The position numbers and the translations under genes were made by a program. Positions 902-11,747 of a stretch of DNA of 25,631 nt are shown here, one piece after another. Source of the DNA: a virus. Location: the IMG/VR virus record IMGVR_UViG_3300030106_004315, positions 1 to 25,631 of that record; one strand, 5' to 3'. The notes under the pieces were generated by a model. That model searched no databases and was not told the origin of the DNA. It saw only the letters and a list, made by a program, of their open reading frames with translations. Numbering within the stretch: the first letter of the stretch is position 1; every line of letters starts with the position of its first letter.

Positions 902-1837
902 TTATCCGTTGCGGATGATGTCGGCTTCTCTCTGTCCCTCTTGTTTGAGGGCCATCATCATTTCTTCGAATGATTTAGCGTTACCTCCCTCGGTAGCCGC
1001 TGCAGCATCAGGCTTCATGTTCATAAGCTTCATGCCTTCAGGCAGTGGCTCAGGCTCAGGCTCTGGCTCAGGCTCTGGCACTGGCTCAGGTTGTGGCAGC
1101 ATGCCACGGACCATCTTGATGGATTGATCGATGTCAAACCCGCCCTTCCAGGCCATCAGAAAAGCTTCGAACGCTTCATCGTTTTCGTAGATGTCAGACC
1201 CGTTATCCATCAAGTACTGCTCAATTGAGTCTACTTGACTTTCGGTAATTTGATCTTCGAAACTATCCAATTGCTTCTGAAGTTCTACGTGCTGCTGAAG
1301 TGCTTGATCACGAGCGGTTTGAGCCTCTTGTAGTTCGACACCAAAAAGCTTCTTTGCTTTCTCGTGCTCCATCTCGGCTCGCTCACGCAGAGTTTCGAGT
1401 GCCGCACGGTGAGCGACTTTCAGGTTTTCGATCTCTCGCTGCTTTTCGACCATCGGGTCCACGTCTCCGTGAAGCCACTTCATGACCTTTCGCTCTTGCT
1501 CTCTCGCAGCCTCCAGGACACGATCTGCTTCGCGTCGCTGACTCGAAAGCTCATCGAACTTCTTTTGGTATCCGCGAGCCCAGTTTTGGTACTTTGACTC
1601 AAATCCGTGGAGCATCGACTGGCGCATGTTGTCGTCCAGTTTATTGAACCACTGTTCTTGCTTTAGGCTTTCAAGCTCTCCGTTCCAGTCAAACACCTCA
1701 GGTGCCGCTTCGGAAGCTACCTCAACAGGTTCTGCTGGTTCCGGTGCAGCCGGTGCTTCTGCGGGTTCCGCCGCTTCAGCGGTCTCCGCCACCTCAGTTT
1801 GCTCGCCCTCAACGGCTTCGTTGTCTTCGTCCCACAT
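902..1837 (-). CDS. Putative capsid scaffolding protein, 311 aa
   Basis: The protein is very acidic at its N-terminus (Glu/Ala/Pro-rich to about residue 50), then mostly long charged helix likely to form coiled coil (about 75-215). A Pro-Glu repeat at about 250-267 is followed by a short C-terminal helix (SFEEMMMALKQEG) and a basic end. Acidic, helical, low-complexity proteins with a C-terminal helix are typical of phage scaffolds, where that helix binds the capsid protein. It is the last gene of the leftward operon that starts with terminase and portal, which fits an assembly role. The start ATG lies one base after the stop of the preceding gene and has AGAAGG about eight bases upstream. No scaffold family signature can be named from sequence alone; a different assembly chaperone is possible. 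Confidence 0.62.
   Translation of the reverse strand: MWDEDNEAVEGEQTEVAETAEAAEPAEAPAAPEPAEPVEVASEAAPEVFDWNGELESLKQEQWFNKLDDNMRQSMLHGFESKYQNWARGYQKKFDELSSQRREADRVLEAAREQERKVMKWLHGDVDPMVEKQREIENLKVAHRAALETLRERAEMEHEKAKKLFGVELQEAQTARDQALQQHVELQKQLDSFEDQITESQVDSIEQYLMDNGSDIYENDEAFEAFLMAWKGGFDIDQSIKMVRGMLPQPEPVPEPEPEPEPEPLPEGMKLMNMKPDAAAATEGGNAKSFEEMMMALKQEGQREADIIRNG
1044..1097 (-). repeat. Hexamer-based tandem repeat encoding Pro-Glu repeats
   Basis: Repeats of GGCTCA/GGCTCT on the + strand run through this stretch and encode alternating Pro-Glu in the scaffold-like protein on the - strand. The repeat is slightly degenerate at both ends. It probably forms a stiff, extended, acidic linker before the C-terminal helix, and its length may vary between relatives by slippage. 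Confidence 0.8.
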
Positions 1838-1838
1838 A

Positions 1839-2327
1839 CTACATACCTTCTGGCGGCATCATTTGACCTGGAGGCATCCCGCCTGGGGCTGCTCCTGGGC
1901 CTGCTGGCATTTGTCCTGCTGCTGGTGGTTCCATGGCTCCGCCTTGACCACGGGCTGCCACCATTTCAAGTTGCATTAGAACATCAAAATCTGAGGCAAT
2001 CATGTCAGCCAATTCTTTTGGCGTCTTGCCCTGTGTCTGTTGTAGCTGTTGCGCGGCGTCGTACAGCATCTGAGCGCGTTCTTCTGTCGCCCCGAGGGTC
2101 TCCATAAGGGGGGCCAGGTCAACGCCTGCTGTAGCCGCCTCTTCCTCTACAGCACCAGCCTGCTGCTCTTCAGCACCAGCCTCTTGCATAGCGGCACCTT
2201 CTTCGGCGCTAGGAGCGTCCGCAGCACCCTCTGCCTCCGCTTGTGCGTCAGCGGCATCGAAGAGAGCCTTAAGGTCGGCCATCTCTTTCTTTTCTTCTTC
2301 GGGCGATAGTGGTTTCTGTTCAGCCAT
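1839..2327 (-). CDS. Conserved-type phage protein of unknown function, Ala/Glu-rich, 162 aa
   Basis: I cannot assign a function. Residues 1-65 are strongly acidic and rich in Ala/Glu/Gln. Residues about 70-125 look like a compact helical domain (GATEERAQMLYDAAQQL, then TPKELADMIASDF and VLMQLEMVAAR). The last 30 residues are Pro/Gly/Met-rich and probably disordered. It sits directly before the scaffold-like gene (one-base gap), and its acidic helical composition resembles that gene, so an accessory assembly role is plausible. The ATG at 2327 has AGGA about nine bases upstream. It is the only gene in the operon preceded by a gap of more than a few bases, and that gap holds a perfect palindrome. 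Confidence 0.7.
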   Translation of the reverse strand: MAEQKPLSPEEEKKEMADLKALFDAADAQAEAEGAADAPSAEEGAAMQEAGAEEQQAGAVEEEAATAGVDLAPLMETLGATEERAQMLYDAAQQLQQTQGKTPKELADMIASDFDVLMQLEMVAARGQGGAMEPPAAGQMPAGPGAAPGGMPPGQMMPPEGM

Positions 2328-2370: not shown

Positions 2371-2625
2371 TTAATTTTGTTGTCGGTATTCCTGAAAAAG
2401 ATCAGGTCTCATAAGTTCAAACGCAGAGTTGATGCCGATTGAAAGTATAAATTTGTTGGGTACGGAGATCTGTTCTCCTGTTGCTCGATCTTGAATGACC
2501 TTTGCGTCTCGCAAAGTATCGTCCTTTACTTGCCGCAGAGATCGATTCTTTCTGCCGGCTTCTCGTTGAGCGTACTCAACAAGCTCGAGGTCAGACAATA
2601 GGCTCTTGGTACTTGGGTCTGGCAT
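2371..2625 (-). CDS. Small hypothetical phage protein, 84 aa
   Basis: I do not recognise this protein. It is a charged, mostly helical soluble protein with no membrane segment or cysteines, and it ends in a Phe/Tyr/Gln-containing tail (DLFQEYRQQN). Its ATG at 2625-2623 shares a base with the TAA of the zinc-ribbon gene upstream (TAATG), so its translation probably depends on that gene. Its position between portal and scaffold suggests a late role. Confidence 0.7.
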   Translation of the reverse strand: MPDPSTKSLLSDLELVEYAQREAGRKNRSLRQVKDDTLRDAKVIQDRATGEQISVPNKFILSIGINSAFELMRPDLFQEYRQQN

Positions 2626-3086
2626 TACTTACCTCCCACAAGTTGTGCGGCACTTTTAGTTTCTGTGCGTCCTTCTGCCTTGAGCCGCTTTGAATGTGTC
2701 GATACCTCTTTGAGGATCTTATCGTTCAAGCTCTTGGCTTTCTTACGTTTCCAGCTTTCGTGGCGCTTGGTGTCCAAGCGAGTTTGTTTCTGTGCCTCGC
2801 TTTCTCCCTCGATGTGAACCTTTTTGCCGGGAAAGCGCTTTTCAATCATGGCCACGCACCGATCGTAGTCTTCTTTGGTTTCGGCTTTGCCGAGTACGCC
2901 GAAGTCGACTGCGGCGAATGATCCTGGTCCTTGACCATGGATAGCATAGCGAAGTCCGCGGAAACTCATCTTACGTTCGCTGCCGCACTCAGGGCACGGG
3001 CCTGGTCCGTCTGCTCTACGGTAGATCGCTTCTTCTTCAAAGAAGTCGCAACCCGTACACTCAACGTTGTTCATTATCAAGCTCAT
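2625..3086 (-). CDS. Zinc-ribbon protein with basic C-terminal half, 153 aa
   Basis: Two CxxC pairs near the N-terminus (C10/C13 in ECTGCDFFEE and C31/C34 in CPECGSERK) form a typical zinc ribbon of the kind used for nucleic-acid or protein binding. Residues about 42-90 form a small mixed domain. From about residue 95 to the end the chain is Lys/Arg-rich and probably helical, which suits DNA or RNA contact. Its ATG overlaps the stop of the preceding gene as ATGA, with AGGG four bases before it. A second Met at residue 5 is a possible alternative start. The function is unknown; it could be a transcription accessory, a packaging cofactor or a small virion protein. Confidence 0.75.
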   Translation of the reverse strand: MSLIMNNVECTGCDFFEEEAIYRRADGPGPCPECGSERKMSFRGLRYAIHGQGPGSFAAVDFGVLGKAETKEDYDRCVAMIEKRFPGKKVHIEGESEAQKQTRLDTKRHESWKRKKAKSLNDKILKEVSTHSKRLKAEGRTETKSAAQLVGGK

Positions 3087-3352
3087 GCCACCCTACTCGT
3101 AACTGCGTCTTTAATTTTTTGTCGTTTAGCCTTTTTCTTGTACTTAGCGTACTGCTCGCCTTCCTTTGTTGCCTTGCGCTTGGCCCGCGTGTCTGCCGCA
3201 GTTTCTTCAGGTGAGTCGTCGGCGTGATCTGCCTTTGGCTTATATCTTTCACCCGTAGCGTCAGGACCTTGAGTACTGGGCTTACCTGACTTGGTACCCC
3301 AGTCTTCATCCGTCCATTGTTTTAGGTTTTTTTGCGACTTAGCGAGTGCCAT
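3083..3352 (-). CDS. Small basic phage protein, DUF5872-like, 89 aa
   Basis: The N-terminal half contains WTDEDWGTKSGKPSTQGPDA followed by TGERY. I recognise this as the signature of a small phage protein family (DUF5872 in my recollection) found in many aquatic phages. Its function is unknown. The C-terminal half is a Lys/Arg-rich tail (about 55-89), which suggests nucleic-acid binding. The start ATG shares a base with the stop of the 61-residue gene (TAATG), and the stop overlaps the next start (ATGA), so it is tightly locked into the operon. The family number should be confirmed by profile search. Confidence 0.75.
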   Translation of the reverse strand: MALAKSQKNLKQWTDEDWGTKSGKPSTQGPDATGERYKPKADHADDSPEETAADTRAKRKATKEGEQYAKYKKKAKRQKIKDAVTSRVA

Positions 3353-3537
3353 TAGTTTTTGTAACCCCCGCCCTTCGCTTTGTACCGCTTGGCCAACATT
3401 TGAGCTTTACGTGCGGACCACTGACCTGGCCTGCCGCCCTTGCCGCCAGCCTTAATCCTTTCGAACATGCGTTTACGCATCCCTGGCTTTGTGTAGTTAC
3501 CAGCCTCGTTCACTCTACTTTTAGACTTTTTTGCCAT
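3352..3537 (-). CDS. Very small basic phage protein, 61 aa
   Basis: The frame is open upstream to 3585, but the ATG at 3537-3535 is chosen. It shares a base with the TAA of the previous gene (TAATG) and has a strong GGAGGG seven bases before it. The product carries NEAGNYTKPGMRKR and then GGRPGQWSARKAQMLAKRYK, a pattern I know from a small conserved family of phage proteins (possibly DUF6321; number from memory). It is highly basic, Gly-rich and probably binds DNA or RNA. Its function is not known. Confidence 0.8.
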   Translation of the reverse strand: MAKKSKSRVNEAGNYTKPGMRKRMFERIKAGGKGGRPGQWSARKAQMLAKRYKAKGGGYKN

Positions 3538-3956
3538 TACACTGCCCTCCCCGCCCAGATTATGCAGACTCTTTGAGACGCGCATTTGAAGTCGAGTGCA
3601 GAGCAGTACCCCAACTCGCCTGCATCTACAGCCTGCTCAGGGTCGCCGTCTTCGCCGATTCCGGTTTCAATGCACTCCTTCATACTTTCAGACGTATCAA
3701 AGAAGGAGCAGTTGCCGCAGCGCATGCTCATTACGTTCTCGACGGTGTCGTTGAACCGGTCAGCATACCGCTGCCAAAACTCTTCGTTGCCACCTTCGTC
3801 ATCGAGTCCTGGGTTCGCAGGCCCGTACTCTTTGGTGTCGAGCGCCTTTTGTCGGTTCTCTAGATTTAGTTCTACGTCTTGTGTTGCTGCCGGGCATGAC
3901 TCTGCCTTCTGGGCACCTTGACGCATCTCGTCCATCATTTCTTGAAACGTAGCCAT
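3537..3956 (-). CDS. Cys-rich conserved phage protein, 139 aa
   Basis: It belongs to a recognisable phage family with an N-terminal CPAATQDVELN motif, a central FWQRYADRF element, and then RCGNCSFFD, CIETG, LGYCSALDFKC and a final C before IIWAG. Counting from the chosen start the cysteines are at 21, 80, 83, 95, 118, 125 and 131. Four or more of them could bind zinc or an iron-sulfur cluster; relatives are sometimes annotated as high-potential iron-sulfur-like, which I treat as unproven. The ATG at 3956 fuses with the preceding TAA (TAATG). An in-frame GTG six bases upstream (3962) is a weaker alternative. Its place among packaging and head genes suggests a virion or assembly role. Confidence 0.8.
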   Translation of the reverse strand: MATFQEMMDEMRQGAQKAESCPAATQDVELNLENRQKALDTKEYGPANPGLDDEGGNEEFWQRYADRFNDTVENVMSMRCGNCSFFDTSESMKECIETGIGEDGDPEQAVDAGELGYCSALDFKCASQRVCIIWAGRAV

Positions 3957-4264
3957 TACCACTTCACCTTGTCCGCCCAGTAAGCGGCGCTCATTTTTCC
4001 TTTGGCGATGTTCTTGCGGTGACGAGACTTGAAGCTCTTGCGCTTCTTCTTCATGCGTTCGCCTTCACCCTTTTTCGGCTTGCCCGCTGTACTGGCACCT
4101 TGCTCGCCGAATCGAATCAGCTTGAGTTGGCTCCCTTCCTGGGCAAGAACAATGTGGCTTTTAGTAGGGTGATCAGGCGTCCGCTTGGGTATGTTTACAC
4201 CCTTGAGCCTATGCTTTTTGAGCAGGCTCGCCTTACGGATCTTGTCTCGTTTGGAGAGGGCCAT
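3956..4264 (-). CDS. Small, very basic conserved phage protein, 102 aa
   Basis: The middle contains KRTPDHPTKSHIVLAQEG and LIRFGEQGASTAGKP. The C-terminus contains KSFKSRHRKNIAKGKMSAAY followed by WADKVKW, a block I recognise from small proteins in many podovirus- and T4-like aquatic phages. Lys and Arg are spread over the whole chain, implying nucleic-acid contact. No function is established for the family to my knowledge. It starts three bases after the preceding stop, with AAGGAAG upstream, and its own stop is fused to the next start (TAATG). Confidence 0.8.
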   Translation of the reverse strand: MALSKRDKIRKASLLKKHRLKGVNIPKRTPDHPTKSHIVLAQEGSQLKLIRFGEQGASTAGKPKKGEGERMKKKRKSFKSRHRKNIAKGKMSAAYWADKVKW

Positions 4265-4267
4265 GAC

Positions 4268-4612
4268 TCATTTCTTCCTTTTCACGCCGAGAGGAAAACT
4301 CAGTGACGCCGTTGCGTACCTACCAGTAACGGATTTCCCGCCAGGGTCAGGCGTATAGCTGTGTTTACCTGCGTCAAAAACAAGCATCGGTGATTTTTCC
4401 GTCTTACCGAGTTTAATTTTTGAGGGGTCGAAACCACCGGACTTTTGCGTTTTTCTACGCTCTATTGCCGAGCTTCGAATATCCCGCCGACGCCCTCCAG
4501 GACTATCATCTTTAGCCACCTTCTTTTCCGACTCTTTCTTTGGCGGCTTATCGTCTGTCTTTTTTTCCGTTGTACTCTTTTTTTCCGTTGTACTCTTTTT
4601 TTCGTCAGACAT
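4268..4612 (-). CDS. Hypothetical protein with Lys/Ser/Thr repeat N-terminus, 114 aa
   Basis: The first 40 residues are low complexity with a repeated KKSTTE unit and many Lys/Glu, almost certainly disordered. The C-terminal part (about 60-114) looks beta-like (SPMLVFDAGKHSYTPDPGGK, TASLSFPLGVK). I do not recognise a family. The start ATG shares a base with the portal stop (TAATG), so it is probably translated by ribosomes finishing the portal. The repeat in the N-terminal tail reflects an 18-bp DNA repeat. Confidence 0.7.
   Translation of the reverse strand: MSDEKKSTTEKKSTTEKKTDDKPPKKESEKKVAKDDSPGGRRRDIRSSAIERRKTQKSGGFDPSKIKLGKTEKSPMLVFDAGKHSYTPDPGGKSVTGRYATASLSFPLGVKRKK
4559..4603 (-). repeat. 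18-bp tandem repeat, about 2.5 copies
   Basis: The + strand unit is C, seven T, then CCGTTGTACT. Two exact copies lie at 4559-4576 and 4577-4594, followed by a partial third copy. It keeps the reading frame and encodes the KKSTTE repeat of the 114-residue protein. Slippage in the T-runs could cause length or frame variation. Confidence 0.85.
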
Positions 4613-6417
4613 TATGCTTCTCCTCCAGGTGCTGGGGATGCCGGAGCAGCTTGAGCCGCGCCGGCTTGAGCTTGTAGCTCAGGCGGGATCGGTATTTGTA
4701 CTCCAGTTTCGGCCTCAACCTTCTCCTTGAAGCGCATGGCGTCTTCGAGCGGCATCTGTGAGATAGCTTGCTGGATAGCTGCCATCTGCTTGGCCTCAAG
4801 GAATGGCTTCCCTCCTGCGGCCCCACCTAGAGATGCTTGTTGTTGCGCCTCTACTGCAGCGCCTTGCTGTGCCATAGCTTCGGCCTGCATTGCTTCCAGT
4901 TCGGCTTGCGGTACCATAATCCGCCGTGACAGACCCATACCAGAAACAACCTCCTCGGTGAGTTGTCGAATGTCGACATTTGGGTTCTCTGCAAGGAACG
5001 GAATCAACTGAAGTAGGCTCTCGATCATGACGCTTGGGTTTTTTCTGATGGGGTTGTAGGACACCATCTCAAAGTCCATCTCAATGTTTCTTAGATCCTT
5101 GTGCGCCAATTGTGCCCAGCGACGGTCACCCGCGATACGAACGAGGCGAGGCTCGCGCATGTACTTTTTACTCAGGTAAAAAATCTTACGCGCTACATCT
5201 TCAATAGCGTCATTGAGGTGCCCTTCTCGAGTTGCGAGTCTTGTTCTCATTTGGGCATCAATGATTGCCATCTCGGTTGCGGTTCTGGCACCGACAACTT
5301 GGCCTCGAGCGGCTTCCGCAAGTGCTGAAATAAACGCAGCGTCATCTTCCTGGCGGGCGATAAACTCTTGTACGCCTGCTGGATTTTGCGGCATCGGCAT
5401 CTCATAAAACAATGCAGCCATTGTTCGGAGAGCTTCACTGTTTGAGGGGTTGATACCGACAAATGAGCCAGCACTAGCCTCGACAGCCTTGTTCAAATCT
5501 TCTTCTGAAATTCGTCCGGAATCATACAGGATTCTGGGAATCTGAAGATAGGTGATCTGCTTCATGTGTGTCAGCAGATCGTTGATTGTTTCTTGTTGTT
5601 TGAGAACAAGCTGAACCTCACTCAAACCCAAACAATCAATTCCTGATTGGTTCAGGCTGAACATTGAGTATGGGATGTAGTCGATCTTATCTTCGAAGAC
5701 GATGGCGTCAGCTTGCTTGACGTAGTGTTGAATGAGCCCACGTTCTCGATCGTAGTACTCGTAGATTGTTACCCACTGAAACGCATCACGTACTTGTTGT
5801 GTGTCACTCTGTTGATTCTTGTCCATCAACCATTTCGGGAAGCGATCGGGCTCAACATCTTGGACCAGTTCAGCTTTGTACAGCCCCGAGCGGACACGAT
5901 CCTTAAACTCTTCGAATGAAATAACTGTGGCTTCAATCCAGTACCGGATGTCATCGGGATCTCTTGCCGTGAGGTCGAAGAATAGAGATGACGGGTTCAC
6001 TGACCGAACAATCGGCAAGTCTCTTTCTGCATCCCACCCAGTCTTAAAGATTCCGCGCTTACAGAGAACCGCGTCAATCAAAGCTGTGGCTGCTTTGCGT
6101 CGAAATCGGTTGGTCCGAAAGATGTAATCCAGCAGTCCCGTAACTGAGGGGGCTGAATCTTGAGAATTCGGCGTTCGAGCAATAGCTGCTACCGTGGGGT
6201 TAGGTCCAAGCAATGCGCTCACAGCAGTGTCTGCGATTGCGTAGATCAAGTTCTTAGAACACAAAAACGAATTCATCTTCGACGTGTTGACGTCGCTGTC
6301 TGAAGCCGTGAAAAAATCACCACGATAGAATCTTCGCGCCTTGTCGAATTGGACTTTTTCTGAGCGCTTGTAGAAGTCTAGGTGCCGATCAATCAGTTTC
6401 GATAACTTGGATGACAT
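4612..6417 (-). CDS. Portal protein, 601 aa
   Basis: The portal forms the 12-subunit ring at one capsid vertex through which DNA is pumped in and later released, and on which the neck assembles. The sequence shows the usual portal plan. An N-terminal helical wing begins LSKLIDRHLDFYKRSEKVQF. The core includes GLSEVQLVLKQQETINDLLT, and a long helix reads ARGQVVGARTATEMAIIDAQ. A Gln/Ala/Pro-rich C-terminal tail (about 500-601) may form a barrel-like extension. The length is normal for portals. It follows the terminase gene with a two-base gap, the classic pairing. The ATG at 6417 is chosen; an in-frame TTG at 6429 would add four residues and overlap the terminase. There is no strong ribosome site before either, so translation is probably coupled to the terminase. 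Confidence 0.88.
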   Translation of the reverse strand: MSSKLSKLIDRHLDFYKRSEKVQFDKARRFYRGDFFTASDSDVNTSKMNSFLCSKNLIYAIADTAVSALLGPNPTVAAIARTPNSQDSAPSVTGLLDYIFRTNRFRRKAATALIDAVLCKRGIFKTGWDAERDLPIVRSVNPSSLFFDLTARDPDDIRYWIEATVISFEEFKDRVRSGLYKAELVQDVEPDRFPKWLMDKNQQSDTQQVRDAFQWVTIYEYYDRERGLIQHYVKQADAIVFEDKIDYIPYSMFSLNQSGIDCLGLSEVQLVLKQQETINDLLTHMKQITYLQIPRILYDSGRISEEDLNKAVEASAGSFVGINPSNSEALRTMAALFYEMPMPQNPAGVQEFIARQEDDAAFISALAEAARGQVVGARTATEMAIIDAQMRTRLATREGHLNDAIEDVARKIFYLSKKYMREPRLVRIAGDRRWAQLAHKDLRNIEMDFEMVSYNPIRKNPSVMIESLLQLIPFLAENPNVDIRQLTEEVVSGMGLSRRIMVPQAELEAMQAEAMAQQGAAVEAQQQASLGGAAGGKPFLEAKQMAAIQQAISQMPLEDAMRFKEKVEAETGVQIPIPPELQAQAGAAQAAPASPAPGGEA

Positions 6418-6419
6418 AG

Positions 6420-8069
6420 TTATGACCAACTCAACGATGCGGGTTTAAAAGGTGAACTTGCTTGACTGCGCTTAGCGCGTTTATGGTTGTCAAGCTGCCT
6501 GATTGTAACTTGTCCCGCAGTATATGTGGATTCTGTTTCCCGTACAGGCGCGGTAAATCGTCGTTTAGAGAATATATCCGCAGCCATAACAGCGGTTCTC
6601 GCGCGGTCAAAGTGATGGAGAATGCCGTCTTCGCCCCGCACACGTTTCTTTTTTGACCCATCATAGTTCAGTAATTGGTGAAGTGTTCCGCGACTCTGAA
6701 TAAATATGTCTCCTTCGCGGAGCATTTGAACAAGTCGGGCCTCAGATTCCTGAACTCGTTTTTGGGTTGCGTACCAACCAGGATGGTTTCGATCGGTCCA
6801 CAACAGGTTTCGATTGTTCTGATCTTTTAGGATCGCAATGCACGCAGTTGCGTTGGACTCAACCGCCAAAAGCGCCTGGTTGTACCTATCTTGAACGCGC
6901 ACAAGTCTTTGAGCAAATCGATCAGGAGCTTCTCTGTCTTCCCAAAAAGCAACTTCGCGCCAATCCTCTGCATCCCAAACGGTCAAAGCAGACTTATCAC
7001 CTGTGCTTCCGAATCCTGCAGGGTCAGCAGTTATTAGATACCTACGTCCCGGTAGTGGCCCTTCAAACTCATGACAGCCCCACGCAGACATTTCGGGATC
7101 CGCTTTTGCTTTGGCCAGCCAGGGCTTCAAAACTTCAGCCGGCATCACAGGGTTAGTCGTACCCAGCCAGCCGTCATATGGATCCGAGGGGTATTTACAT
7201 GAGAACAGTCGGGTATCACCGACAAACTCTGTGTTGAGACCTCGCCGCCTGAACGCGAGGTTATCCATACTCATACCGGGATGCCGCTTTATGTAGTCAA
7301 TCTCAGTTGCTGTTGCTTTGAAGTCTTGCACAACTTCGCGACAGCTATCGTCTTCCCACCATTCGAGGAACAGCGGTGTAAACCTACTGGTTCCCTCCAA
7401 GGCTGATCGCCACATTTGCTCGTGGTGCGAACCTGCTCGACCAGGCGTCGACTCTAGAATTACTTTAGCGTTGGGCCGCTTGTTGACGGTCGGGAAAATG
7501 TTGATGGCTGCTTTACGCTGCCATTGCGCCTCACCAAACTCCGTGATGACGAGGCGGTCAATCGAACGTCCAATCGCTGGTGACCTACCACCAGCCGTGA
7601 GAACTTTGATACCTCCACCATGTATGAACTGCATTTGAGTTGCCCCAGCTTTTTTACCTGGAGCTAGCGGCATTTTGACGTCATCGGGGAGTCTGTTGTA
7701 GGCAAACAGTATGCGCTCAAAGATGTCTTCTGCTGTGTCTTGACGCTCTGCGATAAGCAGACCTTTGACACCGCTAAGGTACATGCAGTCTCTGAGCAAA
7801 AGCATTACCGAAACAGTTGTGATCTTCGCCTGGCGAAATTTATTTACCATGATCCAACGATTTTCATCGTAGGCTTTCAGCAGTTTCTTTTGTGTATGCG
7901 TAGGCTCCATGTAGCCTGTAGACTCATCTTCTCGGACAATCTGACACATAGAGACGAATGCATCGGGCGTAGAAAATAACGCTTTAATTTTGCCTTGGTG
8001 TAGCCCTGGAGCCTCAGCAAACTCCGCCCCACTGGTTTCGCTAGTCTGTTTTTTCTTCGCATTAGCCAT
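6420..8069 (-). CDS. terL: Terminase large subunit (packaging ATPase and nuclease), 549 aa
   Basis: This motor drives DNA into the prohead and cuts the concatemer. The ATPase half has a deviant Walker A at 76-85 (NKFRQAKITT; R79-Q80 conserved, with K77 or K82 as the possible phosphate-binding lysine). Its Walker B-like strand is LVITE at 173-177, with Thr176 where Asp is usual and Glu177 as the catalytic base. The coupling motif is EST at 206-208. The nuclease half has ADPAG around D349, GDKSA around D358, E404 in AVESN, and FDRARTAVMAAD (D488, D498). The length is typical. It is the first gene of the leftward operon, followed directly by the portal. The ribosome site is weak (GAG about 11 bases upstream of the ATG at 8069). 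No small terminase subunit is recognised next to it. Confidence 0.9.
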   Translation of the reverse strand: MANAKKKQTSETSGAEFAEAPGLHQGKIKALFSTPDAFVSMCQIVREDESTGYMEPTHTQKKLLKAYDENRWIMVNKFRQAKITTVSVMLLLRDCMYLSGVKGLLIAERQDTAEDIFERILFAYNRLPDDVKMPLAPGKKAGATQMQFIHGGGIKVLTAGGRSPAIGRSIDRLVITEFGEAQWQRKAAINIFPTVNKRPNAKVILESTPGRAGSHHEQMWRSALEGTSRFTPLFLEWWEDDSCREVVQDFKATATEIDYIKRHPGMSMDNLAFRRRGLNTEFVGDTRLFSCKYPSDPYDGWLGTTNPVMPAEVLKPWLAKAKADPEMSAWGCHEFEGPLPGRRYLITADPAGFGSTGDKSALTVWDAEDWREVAFWEDREAPDRFAQRLVRVQDRYNQALLAVESNATACIAILKDQNNRNLLWTDRNHPGWYATQKRVQESEARLVQMLREGDIFIQSRGTLHQLLNYDGSKKKRVRGEDGILHHFDRARTAVMAADIFSKRRFTAPVRETESTYTAGQVTIRQLDNHKRAKRSQASSPFKPASLSWS

Positions 8070-8261: not shown

Positions 8262-9317
8262 ATGACTATCAGTACTGAACTACTGAATACTACGTTCGCG
8301 GATCTTCGCGGACCTCTGGTGAACTCGTTTGTTCGTAGCAATGAACTGTTCGAGGCACTTAACTCGAAAGCACGTATGCCTATGGAAGGCGGAACGAAGA
8401 TTGAGCGTTCCTTCTCCGGTGGCGCACCTGCTCGCGGTGTTGGTGTCTACGTCGGTGATGAGCTACTGAACATGACCCGTCGTCAACAAATCCGGAAGTT
8501 TGAGGTTGAGCCTCATCGTCTGGTTATGGCGATCAACATTCCTAAGCGTGAGCTTGCTCAAAACTCGGGTAAGTTGGCAATCATTCGTCTGATTGAGGAG
8601 TACCCTCAAACGTCGATGGAAGCCGCTAAGGCAGACATCAACAAGTACCTGCTTACAGGTGTGAGTCGCGGTCTTGCTTTCAACACCTCCGAGCTTCAGG
8701 GTATGATGACTCTTAACGGTCAGTTTAACTCTGGTATTGGAACAGGCGTTACTCACGGTCTGCTTGACTTCCTCGCTCCGGGATCGCAAACCGAAGAGGT
8801 TCAAAGCGTTGCCAAGAGCAGTAGCTACTTCCACTTCAACCAGTTCCAAGACATTGGTAGTTGGTCGGGTGAGGGTATGAACAAGCTCCGTAAGTGCTAC
8901 CGTCAATGCTCTCACTACGCTGGCGGAATTGGTAAGGGTCCAGACATGATTTTCATGGATGACGACACCTACACCAACTTCGAAGAAGAGCGTAGTCAGA
9001 ATGTTCGCGTAAGCATCATTGATGAGAAGATCGACAAGAGCAACACCCTTGGCCTCAGCCTTGGACTCGCTTCGGTCACCTCTTCAATTGATCTGGATCG
9101 TGCCGACTTTACTGCTGGTACCGCTCCTGCTGATGGTGTGACTTACATGCTCAACACGGATTACATCGAGTTCCCAATGCTTGAAGCCCCGAGTGTCTCG
9201 GAGTTCAAGGAGCGGGTTGGCGATCAAGACGTGGTGACAGCAATCTTCGCAATGCAAGGCAACCTGATCTGCACCAAGCTTGTGGCGCAGGGATGTGTGT
9301 CTGGCGGCGCGGTTTAA
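8262..9317 (+). CDS. Major capsid protein, 351 aa
   Basis: This is the shell-forming protein, by inference with the HK97-type fold used by tailed phages. The order of elements fits: an N-terminal arm (TELLNTTFADLRGPLVNSF), a GGTKIERSFSGG strand, a long central helix region (KLAIIRLIEEYPQTSMEAAK then ADINKYLLTG), a loop-rich middle, and C-terminal strands ending in FAMQGNLICTKLVAQG. Length and soluble composition are typical of major capsid proteins. The small decoration-like gene immediately downstream supports the call. The ATG at 8262 has only a weak site (GAG about eight bases upstream). The gene starts the rightward operon, divergent from terminase, portal and the scaffold-like gene, although those products must work together. 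Confidence 0.85.
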   Translation: MTISTELLNTTFADLRGPLVNSFVRSNELFEALNSKARMPMEGGTKIERSFSGGAPARGVGVYVGDELLNMTRRQQIRKFEVEPHRLVMAINIPKRELAQNSGKLAIIRLIEEYPQTSMEAAKADINKYLLTGVSRGLAFNTSELQGMMTLNGQFNSGIGTGVTHGLLDFLAPGSQTEEVQSVAKSSSYFHFNQFQDIGSWSGEGMNKLRKCYRQCSHYAGGIGKGPDMIFMDDDTYTNFEEERSQNVRVSIIDEKIDKSNTLGLSLGLASVTSSIDLDRADFTAGTAPADGVTYMLNTDYIEFPMLEAPSVSEFKERVGDQDVVTAIFAMQGNLICTKLVAQGCVSGGAV

Positions 9318-9323
9318 GGAGGT
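9316..9323 (+). promoter_or_regulatory. Full-consensus ribosome binding site deciding the start at 9329
   Basis: AAGGAGGT overlaps the last two bases of the capsid protein stop codon and lies five bases before the ATG at 9329. It rules out the longer frame open from 9293 and predicts very strong translation of the decoration-like protein, coupled to the end of the capsid gene. Confidence 0.9.
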
Positions 9324-9328
9324 ACATC

Positions 9329-9853
9329 ATGGCTGGAACATTTAAGGATGCAGTGCTTGACGGCTCAGCTTTTTCCCGCGTCTATACGGATGAGGTCTAC
9401 CCTTTGGGCACCATTCGCACACAGGCGTCGGATGAAGTTGAAGCTGCTGAGCATACCGACGGTACTGCGCTGGGGCTGAAGGGAGATCGTACATGGGTCT
9501 TCGTAAAGGCAACAACCGCACTGACCATCTACGACTGTGCTATTGTTAAGGCAGCAGACACGGCTACAGCTTCTTATGAAGTTGCTCCGTCTGACGCTGC
9601 TGGCGACAACTCACTGGATGTCGTTGGTGTCGCACAAAACGCAATCGCTCTTAACTCCTACGGTTGGGTTGTTTGTCACGGTGAAGCCGTGGTTAACGCT
9701 GCCGCAGGCGTTACCGCCGGTTTGTTTATTGATACGCACACTGGTGGTCAAGTAGACGATAGCACTGCTGCAGGAACTCTGATTGGTAAGGCTCTTTCCG
9801 CAACCGATACTCCGGTTACGGGAACGATCCGCGCCCGGATTCGACTGCCGTAG
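9329..9853 (+). CDS. Putative head decoration / cement protein, 174 aa
   Basis: The protein is small, Ala/Thr/Val/Gly-rich and beta-like, with turns such as LGLKGDRTWVFVKA and DNSLDVVGVAQ. It carries GEAVVNAAAGVTAGLFIDTH and a strand-rich C-terminus (GTIRARIRLP). This composition, and its position directly after the major capsid protein with a perfect ribosome site, match decoration or head-stabilising proteins, which bind the outer shell in hundreds of copies. It resembles the protein at 173-847 in style but is shorter and lacks that protein's C-terminal domain; whether they are homologous cannot be shown by eye. The gene ends just before a strong terminator, so it shares a short, insulated transcript with the capsid gene. 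Confidence 0.62.
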   Translation: MAGTFKDAVLDGSAFSRVYTDEVYPLGTIRTQASDEVEAAEHTDGTALGLKGDRTWVFVKATTALTIYDCAIVKAADTATASYEVAPSDAAGDNSLDVVGVAQNAIALNSYGWVVCHGEAVVNAAAGVTAGLFIDTHTGGQVDDSTAAGTLIGKALSATDTPVTGTIRARIRLP

Positions 9854-9875
9854 TATTTCACTACGTGATACACTT

Positions 9876-9914
9876 AGGGGGCGTAGCTTTCGGGTTACGC
9901 CCCCTTCGTTTTTT
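9876..9914 (+). terminator. Intrinsic terminator after the capsid-decoration pair
   Basis: AGGGGGCGTA at 9876-9885 pairs perfectly with TACGCCCCCT at 9896-9905 around a 10-base loop, followed by TTCGTTTTTT. The ribosome site of the next gene (GGAGGT at 9915-9920) begins at the base after the T-run. Any downstream transcript must therefore come from read-through, antitermination or an unseen promoter. Confidence 0.88.
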
Positions 9915-9923
9915 GGAGGTCCT

Positions 9924-11747
9924 GTGGACGTTTCTTTGTCTAGTTTGAAGTCTCAACTATTGTCGATGCGCTCCTGGGATTCGAGCGGAGCGACTCAAGA
10001 CAACCGTATTCGAAAGGCTATCAACGTAGCCCTCAATCGAATGTCGAATGATGTTCCTGAGGCGCTCGTGCCCAGAGAAGAGCATGTTGTGTTGTTTCCG
10101 GATGTAGTCAGCACCTCTGACTCGGTGTCGGCCCGTGTCGTTACTCTTGATAGTGACAAGCGTCTGCTTGAGTTTGTAGATACTTCAGGAACCAAAATTG
10201 CGGCGTCGGGCAGCGCTACTAGTTGGCGGCCCACGATTACAGGAGAGTGGGACTCCGTCATGCATATCGAGATTACGGATGCGTCGGGTCGAATCCATCG
10301 ACGCCAATGCCTCGAGTGGTTCAAAGACGTCGTCTCATCCAACCCCGATGACATCATTACTTATGGGGTGACGCTAGATAGACCGTACCCAGATATTATT
10401 ACTTCGAGTAACCAAGGTGTTGGTGCTCTCGAGTTCCGAATTCACCAACCAGAGTTTTTTGTCGCCGACGACGTGATTGAGGTCATGGAGCCCGCAACCA
10501 TTTTTGATGGTACTCGTCAGCAAGTTTGGAAGATTGACACTGCCGGCGCGAGCCGACAAGACATGCTTGACTACAAAGGTAGTGCTACGGGCCGACCGTA
10601 TCGTTGCTGGAGAGGCAGGCATTTTCAGTTGCCCGCCCCCACAGAGCCCCCTCATGTCATGGAGGCGGGATATACGTCTGGAGACTTTGAGCGTCCAACT
10701 GACGATGTTGAGGCAATCCAAGCGTTTATTGATTGGTTGGTAGACGTTTACGAGGCGTCAACAGGGATGCCTATTGGGTCGACGCTCGAAGATGCGTATG
10801 CTTGGGCTGATAGCAAGGGCTTGCGTCGGGGTGAGTGGGGCATTTGCTACACCTACGTCATGGGCAGGAGAGATGAGGAGTGGCAACAGTCACCACTGAT
10901 TACTCCTGGCGGAGACGTTGACCAGGACAGTAACTACGGGGTGACCTGGGCATACAACAAAGACTCGTCACCTCTGACTGGAGAAAACATTTATTCGGGT
11001 ATTCATGACCCAGTATTCGAAAGCGCTCCGTCGCCGATGACAATTATCCGGCAGGCCCAGGATGGCCCTAAGGGTGCGTTGGTTTTGTCAGCTACAAATA
11101 TTGATCAGATGTTGGGTTTCGGTGATCCAGCGTACAAGCGGTATGGGCGATCTGGTGTTCGGATTCGTTATTATGTGGCGCACCTGAAGAAGTATCAGAC
11201 TGGTTTAGGTACTTTCAATCGTGTCGAGACGAATCCGAGACTTCACCTTCTGTGTGAAGTTGAGCCTACGTTCGATATGGTTACGTCTCTTGAGTCCGCA
11301 GGTACGGGTGTCCCGGAATCGATTCTTGAACTTGGGTCGTCAGACTCTACGGCAGCACGAGTTGTGTGGAATGGTGATCAGTTGTATGACTATCATCGTC
11401 AGTTGAAGTACAGCACGGGCTATTACGCTTGGAAAGTTTTTCCCCACCAAGACGCTCGTTACGAGTTGGATTTTAGGGTTTCAGCGCTGCCTAAGCCATT
11501 GCTCGATCCCGCAGATTGCGCTCCGATTCACCCGGAGTCGATACCAACTTTGCTCGAGCTTGCGCTGTATTATGTCAGTTTATCTGACGGAAATGACCAA
11601 GTCAGCGCTCAAGCACATCTGACTCGGTACCACGATTTGTTGCGTGTATTCCGCGATAGGTATGCAAATACGGGCGGTGTTGTCGAACCGTCGTCGATTT
11701 TGGGTTATCCTCACAGGCACCGTTACGGTACGTTTAGTTCATCATAG
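9924..11747 (+). CDS. Putative neck / head-to-tail adaptor-like protein, 607 aa
   Basis: The frame is open further upstream, inside the decoration gene and across the terminator. GTG at 9924 is chosen because GGAGGT lies directly before it (four bases from GGAGG to GTG, slightly short). TTG at 9936 is an alternative. The N-terminus (LSSLKSQLLSMRSW, then NRIRKAINVALNRMSNDVP) and the C-terminus from about residue 536 (HPESIPTLLELALYYVSL, AHLTRYHDLLRVFRDRYA) look like the helical parts of phage adaptor proteins that bind under the portal. About 450 residues of beta-rich sequence lie between them, far more than in usual 150-200 residue adaptors. Its location after the capsid genes and before the nozzle-like gene fits a neck role. 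The adaptor call is inference; another tail-hub role is possible. Confidence 0.5.
   Translation: MDVSLSSLKSQLLSMRSWDSSGATQDNRIRKAINVALNRMSNDVPEALVPREEHVVLFPDVVSTSDSVSARVVTLDSDKRLLEFVDTSGTKIAASGSATSWRPTITGEWDSVMHIEITDASGRIHRRQCLEWFKDVVSSNPDDIITYGVTLDRPYPDIITSSNQGVGALEFRIHQPEFFVADDVIEVMEPATIFDGTRQQVWKIDTAGASRQDMLDYKGSATGRPYRCWRGRHFQLPAPTEPPHVMEAGYTSGDFERPTDDVEAIQAFIDWLVDVYEASTGMPIGSTLEDAYAWADSKGLRRGEWGICYTYVMGRRDEEWQQSPLITPGGDVDQDSNYGVTWAYNKDSSPLTGENIYSGIHDPVFESAPSPMTIIRQAQDGPKGALVLSATNIDQMLGFGDPAYKRYGRSGVRIRYYVAHLKKYQTGLGTFNRVETNPRLHLLCEVEPTFDMVTSLESAGTGVPESILELGSSDSTAARVVWNGDQLYDYHRQLKYSTGYYAWKVFPHQDARYELDFRVSALPKPLLDPADCAPIHPESIPTLLELALYYVSLSDGNDQVSAQAHLTRYHDLLRVFRDRYANTGGVVEPSSILGYPHRHRYGTFSSS

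Follow-up and report, generated by a model that had tools for sequence, protein, structure and literature searches.

Constant and variable genes behind a portal gene

The stretch of viral DNA analysed here (the window: 25,631 nucleotides, forming part of the 37,108-base virus record IMGVR_UViG_3300030106_004315 of IMG/VR) carries seven small genes, g1 to g7, between a portal gene and two genes for acidic proteins, s162 and s311. Comparison with relatives shows that the seven are not one unit: g6 and g7 are constant, and g2 to g5 come and go. An earlier sequence-only reading of the window had described seven short genes of 61-153 amino acids (aa), nearly gapless, between portal and scaffold-like genes, and this description holds, all seven being minus-strand open reading frames (ORFs) in 2371-4612. 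Its zinc ribbon with a basic tail is g6 (CxxC...CxxC), its seven-cysteine protein is g3, and the basic families that it described as recurring in aquatic phages were indeed found in records of the phage collection. The minus-strand succession runs from TerL (6420-8069) through the portal gene and the seven small genes to s162 and s311. A capsid-type gene (phrog_9953) begins at 8262 and is directed opposite to the TerL/portal run. The features, with isoelectric points (pI) and expectation values (E) where available, are as follows.

4612..6429, minus strand: portal (head-tail connector gene), upstream partner of the cluster; phrog_332, E 7.1e-19; phrog_156, E 4.7e-17
4268..4612, minus strand: g1, 114 aa, pI 10.1, Lys-rich, with a STTEKK repeat; orphan
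3956..4264, minus strand: g2, 102 aa, pI 11.2, cysteine-free, Tlr6F/DUF5754 sister branch; phrog_7595, E 1.6e-38
3537..3956, minus strand: g3, 139 aa, acidic (net charge -16), seven cysteines; kin annotated "high potential iron-sulfur protein"
3352..3537, minus strand: g4, 61 aa, basic, N-terminal half of a DUF5872-like protein, with a GGxPGQWSARKAQ motif; phrog_17747, E 8.1e-34
3083..3352, minus strand: g5, 89 aa, basic, pI 9.7, C-terminal half of a DUF5872-like protein; phrog_14910, E 3.9e-18
2625..3086, minus strand: g6, 153 aa, zinc ribbon (CxxC...CxxC) with a basic tail, pI 9.2; core gene
2371..2625, minus strand: g7, 84 aa, net charge 0, family unassigned; core gene
1839..2327, minus strand: s162, acidic protein, the far border set for the interval
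902..1837, minus strand: s311, acidic protein whose composition and place are scaffold-like; in 43 of the 45 spanned relatives

The tight linkage to the portal gene that had been noted earlier is evident at the junctions. The portal stop overlaps the g1 start by one nucleotide, and such TAATG junctions (1-nt overlap) occur at five places: portal/g1, g2/g3, g3/g4, g4/g5 and g6/g7. The remaining two are a 4-nt overlap (g5/g6) and a 3-nt gap (g1/g2). From these junctions we infer that the seven genes share one transcript and that their translation is coupled to that of the portal. Two starts admit alternatives. For g3, the ATG at 3956 gives 139 aa and a GTG at 3962 gives 141 aa. For g4, the ATG at 3537 gives 61 aa, and the ORF list holds a longer form of 77 aa (net charge +18) that begins at an upstream ATG; the start at 3537 is most likely the real one, because its overlap with the g3 stop is the same as at the other junctions.

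The ORFs of the cluster are real genes, given the PHROG matches of g2, g4 and g5 and the recurrence of g2 to g7 in IMG/VR contigs. The median ratio of nonsynonymous to synonymous substitution rates (dN/dS) against relatives is below 0.2 for g2, g3, g4, g6 and g7; pairs with dS outside 0.1-2 were dropped, leaving 2 usable pairs for g2, 2 for g3, 9 for g4, 10 for g5, 20 for g6 and 5 for g7.

Relatives were gathered from IMG/VR by their portal genes. Among the best 80 of 118 confirmed, 45 span the interval from portal to s162, and the other 35 were dropped. These loci are not independent of one another, and kinship is allowed for only in the TerL-cluster counts given below. In the spanned relatives g6 is present in 45 of 45, g7 in 42 and s311 in 43; the variable genes are g2 (29 of the 45), g4 (25), g5 (25) and g3 (18). 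The genes found between portal and s162 are, in order, g6-g7 alone in 16 relatives, g2-g3-g4-g5-g6-g7 in 13 and g2-g4-g5-g6-g7 in 11, with g2-g3-g6 (3) and g2-g3-g6-g7 (2) as rarer arrangements. No spanned relative has just one of g4 and g5 (0 of 45). The genes g6 and g7 behave as core head-block genes. The sequence-only reading had proposed one coordinated function for all seven, and this has to be given up: 16 of the 45 relatives are without any of g2 to g5 between portal and s162. Scattering or free loss among relatives, which that reading had named, together with absence from virions, as an argument against a joint role in head assembly, is found for g2 to g5 and is not found for g6 or g7. 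In two loci, L076 (one of these 16) and L080 (outside the 45), a fused g4-g5 is encoded upstream of TerL on the opposite strand.

Portal and s162 are between 926 and 4443 bases apart in the relatives, and the interval holds 68 other ORFs, forming 28 clusters. Among the extra ORFs of at most 170 aa, 28 of 36 have a pI of at least 9.5. In L082 the ORF directly after g2 is a DUF5824 protein (49.8 bits versus a 25-bit cut-off), a family that we take to belong to giant viruses. A 314-aa protein with no Pfam match, encoded between g5 and g6 in L011 (9523-10464), has relatives in the interval, its cluster being present in 22 of the 45 spanned loci. The proposition that all small interval genes are unusually basic was tried and set aside, the effect being moderate: a net charge of at least +0.10 per residue is seen in 78 of 171 versus 43 of 163 elsewhere, and a pI of at least 9.5 in 85 of 171 versus 70 of 163. 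A paired Wilcoxon test of basicity gave P 0.006, with the interval higher in 27 of 41 loci, which are not independent. Seven relatives of at least 65 kb each carry g2, a DUF5872-like gene, or both; two of nine smaller records carry g2 or a DUF5872-like gene, these records being fragments in which absence proves little.

The first gene stands apart. Among 84 loci searched, g1 matched solely the window's own record, and nine candidate stretches in IMG/VR included none that is related. Lys-rich ORFs in L009 (9915-10157) and L019 (9939-10151 and 10151-10435) have ends that resemble, by eye, the end of g1, which may be a fast-evolving member of such a set.

Families of the small genes

Profile searches for each gene, as had been advised in the earlier reading, succeeded in part. 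They placed g2, g4 and g5 in PHROG families; the window's g4 and g5, searched singly, had no match to PF19197, and its g2 had none to PF19058 at E up to 1. The links to those Pfam families come through relatives. Three pattern scans of IMG/VR each gave at least 120 stretches, and 118 of those found with the DNA pattern of the g4 motif hold a g4 match. Among the matches listed, 112 of these 118 loci have g5 at most 3 kb from g4, in all 112 on the same strand and 3' of it; the count is 21 of 21 when only loci that offer 3 kb on either flank are taken. In 176 fetched g4 loci, 28 ORFs have g4 and g5 fused in that order (two with a weak partial g5 match); 21 of the 28 form our alignment A1. Each of the 13 phage-collection records with g5 has g4 too, and a fused g4-g5 query found 20 records, 10 of them shared with the g2 list.

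Four of eight fused proteins scanned match PF19197 (DUF5872; best E 3.5e-5, 24.8 bits versus a 27.5-bit cut-off), and fused g4-g5 aligns over nearly the entire model with the order unchanged. A PF19197 search matched two of eight g4-holding records (E at most 0.01; best 25.1 bits) and none above cut-off; therefore, the DUF5872 link is significant but remote. In the window there is no single polypeptide with a g4 part followed by a g5 part, these being two separate genes. A predicted structure of fused g4-g5 (from L128) has a mean predicted local distance difference test score (pLDDT) of 87.5 and a predicted template modelling score (pTM) of 0.55. Foldseek found nothing significantly similar to it in the PDB, and VIA-align gave Z scores of at most 3.2, which does not imply a novel fold, and a g4-g5 profile retrieved nothing from the PDB at E of 1 or less.

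The pair also occurs in other contexts. In L115 g5 is fused to g2. In L156 (5761-7122) a g5-type part continues in frame into a long ORF, 454 codons in total, by fusion or read-through, and in L189 (905-1402) the reading frame goes on from a g5-type part into a tail that bears CxxC and resembles a zinc finger. In L002 (HMO-2011; 8901-10670) g5 and g4 are separated by an insertion that comprises a methanesulfonate monooxygenase gene and two small genes.

For g2 we built a profile from 62 sequences (A2: the window and 61 of 100 non-redundant relatives). Among the matches listed, this profile recognises 77 of 121 ORFs of a cysteine-bearing phage branch (Cys branch) at E <1e-3. An hhalign comparison with an alignment of that branch (A3: 33 of 42 kept sequences) gave E 1.3e-18 and a probability of 99.1 over 79 columns at 35% identity, and the motifs RFG and KSFxARH...YW...W are common to both. 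PF19058 matches 10 of 33 Cys-branch members (E at most 0.05; best E 2e-7), the first member scoring 14.8 bits of a 27.4-bit cut-off. The window's g2 is without both cysteines of the H-x-C...YWxC motif, reading RHRK...YWAD where A3 has invariant H75, C77 and C91. Because of these two lost cysteines and its own failure to match PF19058, g2 is filed, on its sequence, as a sister branch and not a member of the Tlr6F/DUF5754 superfamily. It has K and D at about the places of the two cysteines, and it is possible that a metal site or disulfide has been swapped for a salt bridge.

The Cys branch forms part of long proteins. Two of these, in L411 and L409, show a weak likeness to head maturation proteases (phrog_80; E 0.0031 and 0.0023, no individual stretch being significant) along with matches to phrog_7595 (E 2e-9 and 8.8e-11). 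In L411 portal- and MuF-like ORFs lie upstream and an acidic scaffold-like ORF downstream, as named by reading. DUF5824 is found in 4 of 10 long Cys-branch proteins above cut-off and in two more below it. An AlphaFold2 model of g2 (pLDDT 81.5, pTM 0.67) likewise resembled no PDB structure significantly in Foldseek, and its VIA-align Z scores were at most 2.6, again with no implication of a novel fold. Related predicted viral proteins were retrieved, two with E <0.001, and weaker matches include one named XkdF and one named ChaB (probability 0.85 each, E 0.13-0.18). A search of the PDB with the g2 profile gave weak baseplate and L24 matches only, with E of 0.17 or worse.

Seven phage records match g3 and are annotated as "high potential iron-sulfur protein". 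Five cysteines (C80, C83, C118, C125 and C131) are invariant in 31 sequences. The iron-sulfur name stays unconfirmed because Pfam HIPIP (PF01355) matched 1 of 31 members, at E 0.061; a g3 profile had no match in the PDB at E up to 1. Four of the seven g3 records also have g2, two of the four being equal in length and possibly one genome.

In g6 cysteines C10, C13, C31 and C34 are invariant in 33 of 33 sequences, and the middle part of the protein is conserved. It resembles the FmdB-type model TIGR02605 below cut-off (E 0.0048, 16.9 of 31.3 bits), and its profile retrieved GATA-type zinc fingers from the PDB (best E 0.0029). Neither g6 nor the window's portal had a match in the phage collection; a zinc-ribbon-named gene in MW202701 was considered as a g6 homologue and ruled out, having no hidden Markov model match. 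For g7, aligned from 27 sequences, the libraries searched gave no family or credible PDB match, with designed proteins only in the PDB profile search. Profile searches of the window proteins likewise gave no family match that confirms s311 as a scaffold. Convergent with s311 lies a plus-strand gene (173-847) for a 224-aa protein with a weak likeness to phage cement protein (PF09956, E 0.022).

The best 80 of 403 confirmed bacterial DUF5872-like loci were also analysed. Their carriers include many Sphingomonas, Methylobacterium, Aureimonas, Azospirillum and Stutzerimonas, and several (among L447-L526) come from leaves and lichens according to record titles. In the class searched the gene is rare (5 of 289 genomes, the centre genome included), and g2 was found in 0 of 289 with the same profile that matched 7 of 16 virus records. 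An attempt to read function from bacterial neighbours was abandoned, as there is no conserved neighbour; the commonest credible cluster occurs in 16 of 80 loci, and many ORFs in this GC-rich DNA are spurious. In a tree of 101 DUF5872-like proteins (one of the 80 bacterial loci left out), 73 of 79 bacterial-genome proteins stand apart from the phage ones and the other six, from contigs of metagenome-assembled genomes, fall among them. The direction of transfer is left open because deep support is weak (22/79).

Closeness to terminase and head genes

TerL could be detected in 37 of the 106 loci found by the g2 pattern and in 42 of the 118 found by the g4 pattern; the other 69 and 76 were dropped, and chance expectations were obtained by drawing random genes from the same loci. 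Among the matches listed, 28 of 37 loci have g2 no more than 1.5 kb from TerL, compared with 14.5 expected, a count that 0 of 2000 random draws reached, and in 23 of these 28 g2 is upstream of TerL. With TerL proteins clustered at 35% identity, g2 is near in 11 of 15 clusters and g4 in 3 of 7. Again among the matches listed, g2 is on the TerL strand in 36 of 37 loci and g4 in 42 of 42, compared with 78% of other genes. Thus, the packaging link is real for g2 and TerL, and for g4-g5 it is weaker, consisting of strand only. Capsid genes were near in 0 of 2 loci for g2 and 1 of 4 for g4.

Individual phages place these genes in similar surroundings. In KBS-S-2A g2 lies between a minor head protein and a coat protein gene. 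In MW202701 g3 adjoins g2, both upstream of genes for a virion protein, TerS and TerL, and in MEP402 g4-g5 is directly upstream of TerL. L147 has g2-type and DUF5872-type genes between MuF-like and scaffold/capsid-like genes (named by reading the ORF list), and in DSL-LC01 g3 stands beside capsid maturation protease genes. Cultured carriers include KBS-S-2A of Synechococcus WH7803 and ICBM2 of Lentibacter SH36, both with g2, CRP-1 with g2, g4 and g5, and HMO-2011.

Possible roles and known systems

We regard it as highly probable that three things hold jointly: g6 and g7 belong to a constant portal-g6-g7-s162-s311 block; g2 to g5 are an exchangeable cassette, with g1 found only here; and g4/g5 are a split DUF5872-like protein and g2 a sister of Tlr6F/DUF5754, families known chiefly from polinton-like and giant viruses. 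It is also probable that in phages the cassette genes lie on the TerL strand and g2 is found near TerL. From these families and this cassette behaviour we infer a function, and here our preference is tentative: the interval would be a swap site in the packaging operon, and the basic proteins would be late-made, nucleic-acid-binding packaging accessories. The seven genes would be translated in step with the portal, late in infection. Around the packaging machine the basic proteins would bind nucleic acid and might assist in retaining the incoming genome, offsetting its charge or compacting it; portal and scaffold would have g6, with its zinc ribbon, as an invariable partner. The most plausible common target is DNA (or RNA), and the most plausible time is packaging, because the proteins are basic, rich in K and R, small and coupled to the portal, and have relatives in viruses that share little but DNA. 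The nucleic-acid-binding role in packaging, taken by itself, is a reading that we would still hesitate to call the likelier outcome.

Several observations weigh against a packaging role. Among the matches listed, g4 lies within 1.5 kb of TerL in 20 of 42 loci, close to the 16.8 expected (P 0.15), so that the packaging-accessory idea of the sequence-only reading gains from the position of g2 and not from that of g4. Neither gene is significantly near the portal (g2 in 10 of 25, P 0.14; g4 in 6 of 31, P 0.85). The stretches fetched around g4-g5 in HTVC035P, HTVC033P and S-EIV1 contain no annotated head gene, g2 is at the lysis end of ICBM2 and beside lysis genes in S-CRES1, and in L348 a g2-type domain is joined to a cytidyltransferase (phrog_3041, E 3.8e-95) with no evident packaging role. 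The median dN/dS of g5 is 0.43, indicating loose constraint; g2 and DUF5872 are each dispensable in near relatives; and DUF5872-like genes also occur in bacterial genomes. A search of the literature, which was not exhaustive, found in the texts available no virion proteomics of a carrier phage.

Some of these observations are what would be expected if g1 to g5 were morons for host takeover or counter-defence, with the operon as a landing site and the basic proteins acting on host nucleic acid or ribosomes. We consider this doubtful; even so, since the genes can be lost and can move, it comes close to the packaging reading. Morons would fit the patchy distribution among near relatives, the relocation of the fused g4-g5 in L076 and L080 to a place upstream of TerL on the other strand, and the occurrence of DUF5872-like genes in bacteria. 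They would also fit the neighbourhoods in several phages, where the genes flank a metabolic gene (HMO-2011), adjoin lysis genes (ICBM2 and S-CRES1) or lie near genes of replication type (S-EIV1). The strong co-direction with TerL and the closeness of g2 to it speak against morons, as do positions inside head modules of unrelated phages and related families in protist viruses, which have no bacterial host target in common.

It is rather unlikely that the small proteins serve as chaperones of head assembly or as minor components of the capsid, with g6 and the basic proteins bridging portal, scaffold and capsid without DNA contact. The constancy of g6 and g7 beside portal and scaffold-like genes would agree with this, and so would a weak match of g2 to phrog_220 (minor head protein and DNA pilot; E 4.7e-5) and the g2-type domain in proteins weakly like a head maturation protease. 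However, relatives that share the portal and scaffold-like genes do without g2 to g5, which therefore cannot be required parts of that head, and passages of PMC4642659 place g2 relatives in viruses with unrelated capsids. Finally, g3 might be a redox or iron-sulfur protein and the cluster a chance assembly, in one operon, of unrelated genes that serve no common process. The different families and charges, and the annotation of the g3 kin, are compatible with such an assembly, which the g4-g5 and g5-g2 fusions and the company of g3 and g2 (in four of seven g3 records, two possibly one genome, and adjacent in MW202701) render improbable.

The packaging reading has consequences beyond this locus. 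With sister forms of the Tlr6F and DUF5872 families inherited together, fused and exchanged within a packaging operon of phages, there is a simple genetic system for testing the role of these families. If the proteins do bind packaged DNA, the description of phage genome packaging would change, and gene exchange or a shared constraint between phages and protist viruses in water would be indicated. A bolder extension, which we think unlikely, is that aquatic phages carry a chromatin-like kit of small basic proteins (g2, g4-g5 and perhaps DUF5824-type) that are produced alongside the portal, loaded on DNA during packaging, and exchanged as cassettes from a stock that giant and polinton-like viruses have in common with these phages. 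This would overturn the view that phage DNA is neutralised almost solely by small cations.

The literature searched holds almost nothing on DUF5872, DUF5754 or DUF5824, and neither PF19197 nor PF19058 was found in the main text of PMC8715426. Excerpts of a 2015 study describe Tlr6F as conserved in nearly all polinton-like viruses (PLVs), with its role undetermined, and as occurring across very different DNA viruses with no similarity to domains of known structure or function (PMC4642659). A later source, as excerpted, equates PF19058 with Tlr6f and notes it in PLVs, giant viruses and phages (PMC12220804), and the algal virus CpV-BQ1 is listed with both DUF5872 and DUF5754 genes in the relevant part of PMC12085832. 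The Tlr6F/DUF5754 proteins of PLVs, virophages, giant viruses and some phages are like g2 in motifs, by way of the Cys branch; they differ in that g2 has neither of the two H-x-C...YWxC cysteines and no PF19058 match. DUF5872 (PF19197) of giant viruses corresponds to fused g4-g5 in the order of parts and in near-full alignment to the model, whereas the window has the protein split into two overlapping genes and scores of the relatives lie below cut-off. PHROG 7595, 17747 and 14910, all of unknown function, have g2, g4 and g5 as respective members. PHROGs lists the three families separately; it is the present analysis that shows g4 fused to g5 and connects 7595 with Tlr6F. The FmdB-type zinc ribbon (TIGR02605) has two CxxC pairs, as does g6, which differs in its sub-cut-off score and in a long conserved C-terminal part outside the model. 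Passages of PMC3281028 report no evidence for much contribution of basic proteins to DNA neutralisation in phages, and describe virions of the chlorovirus PBCV-1 as containing several basic DNA-associated proteins proposed to neutralise the packaged DNA. Likened by description and not by sequence, these PBCV-1 proteins are a possible functional parallel for g2, g4 and g5.

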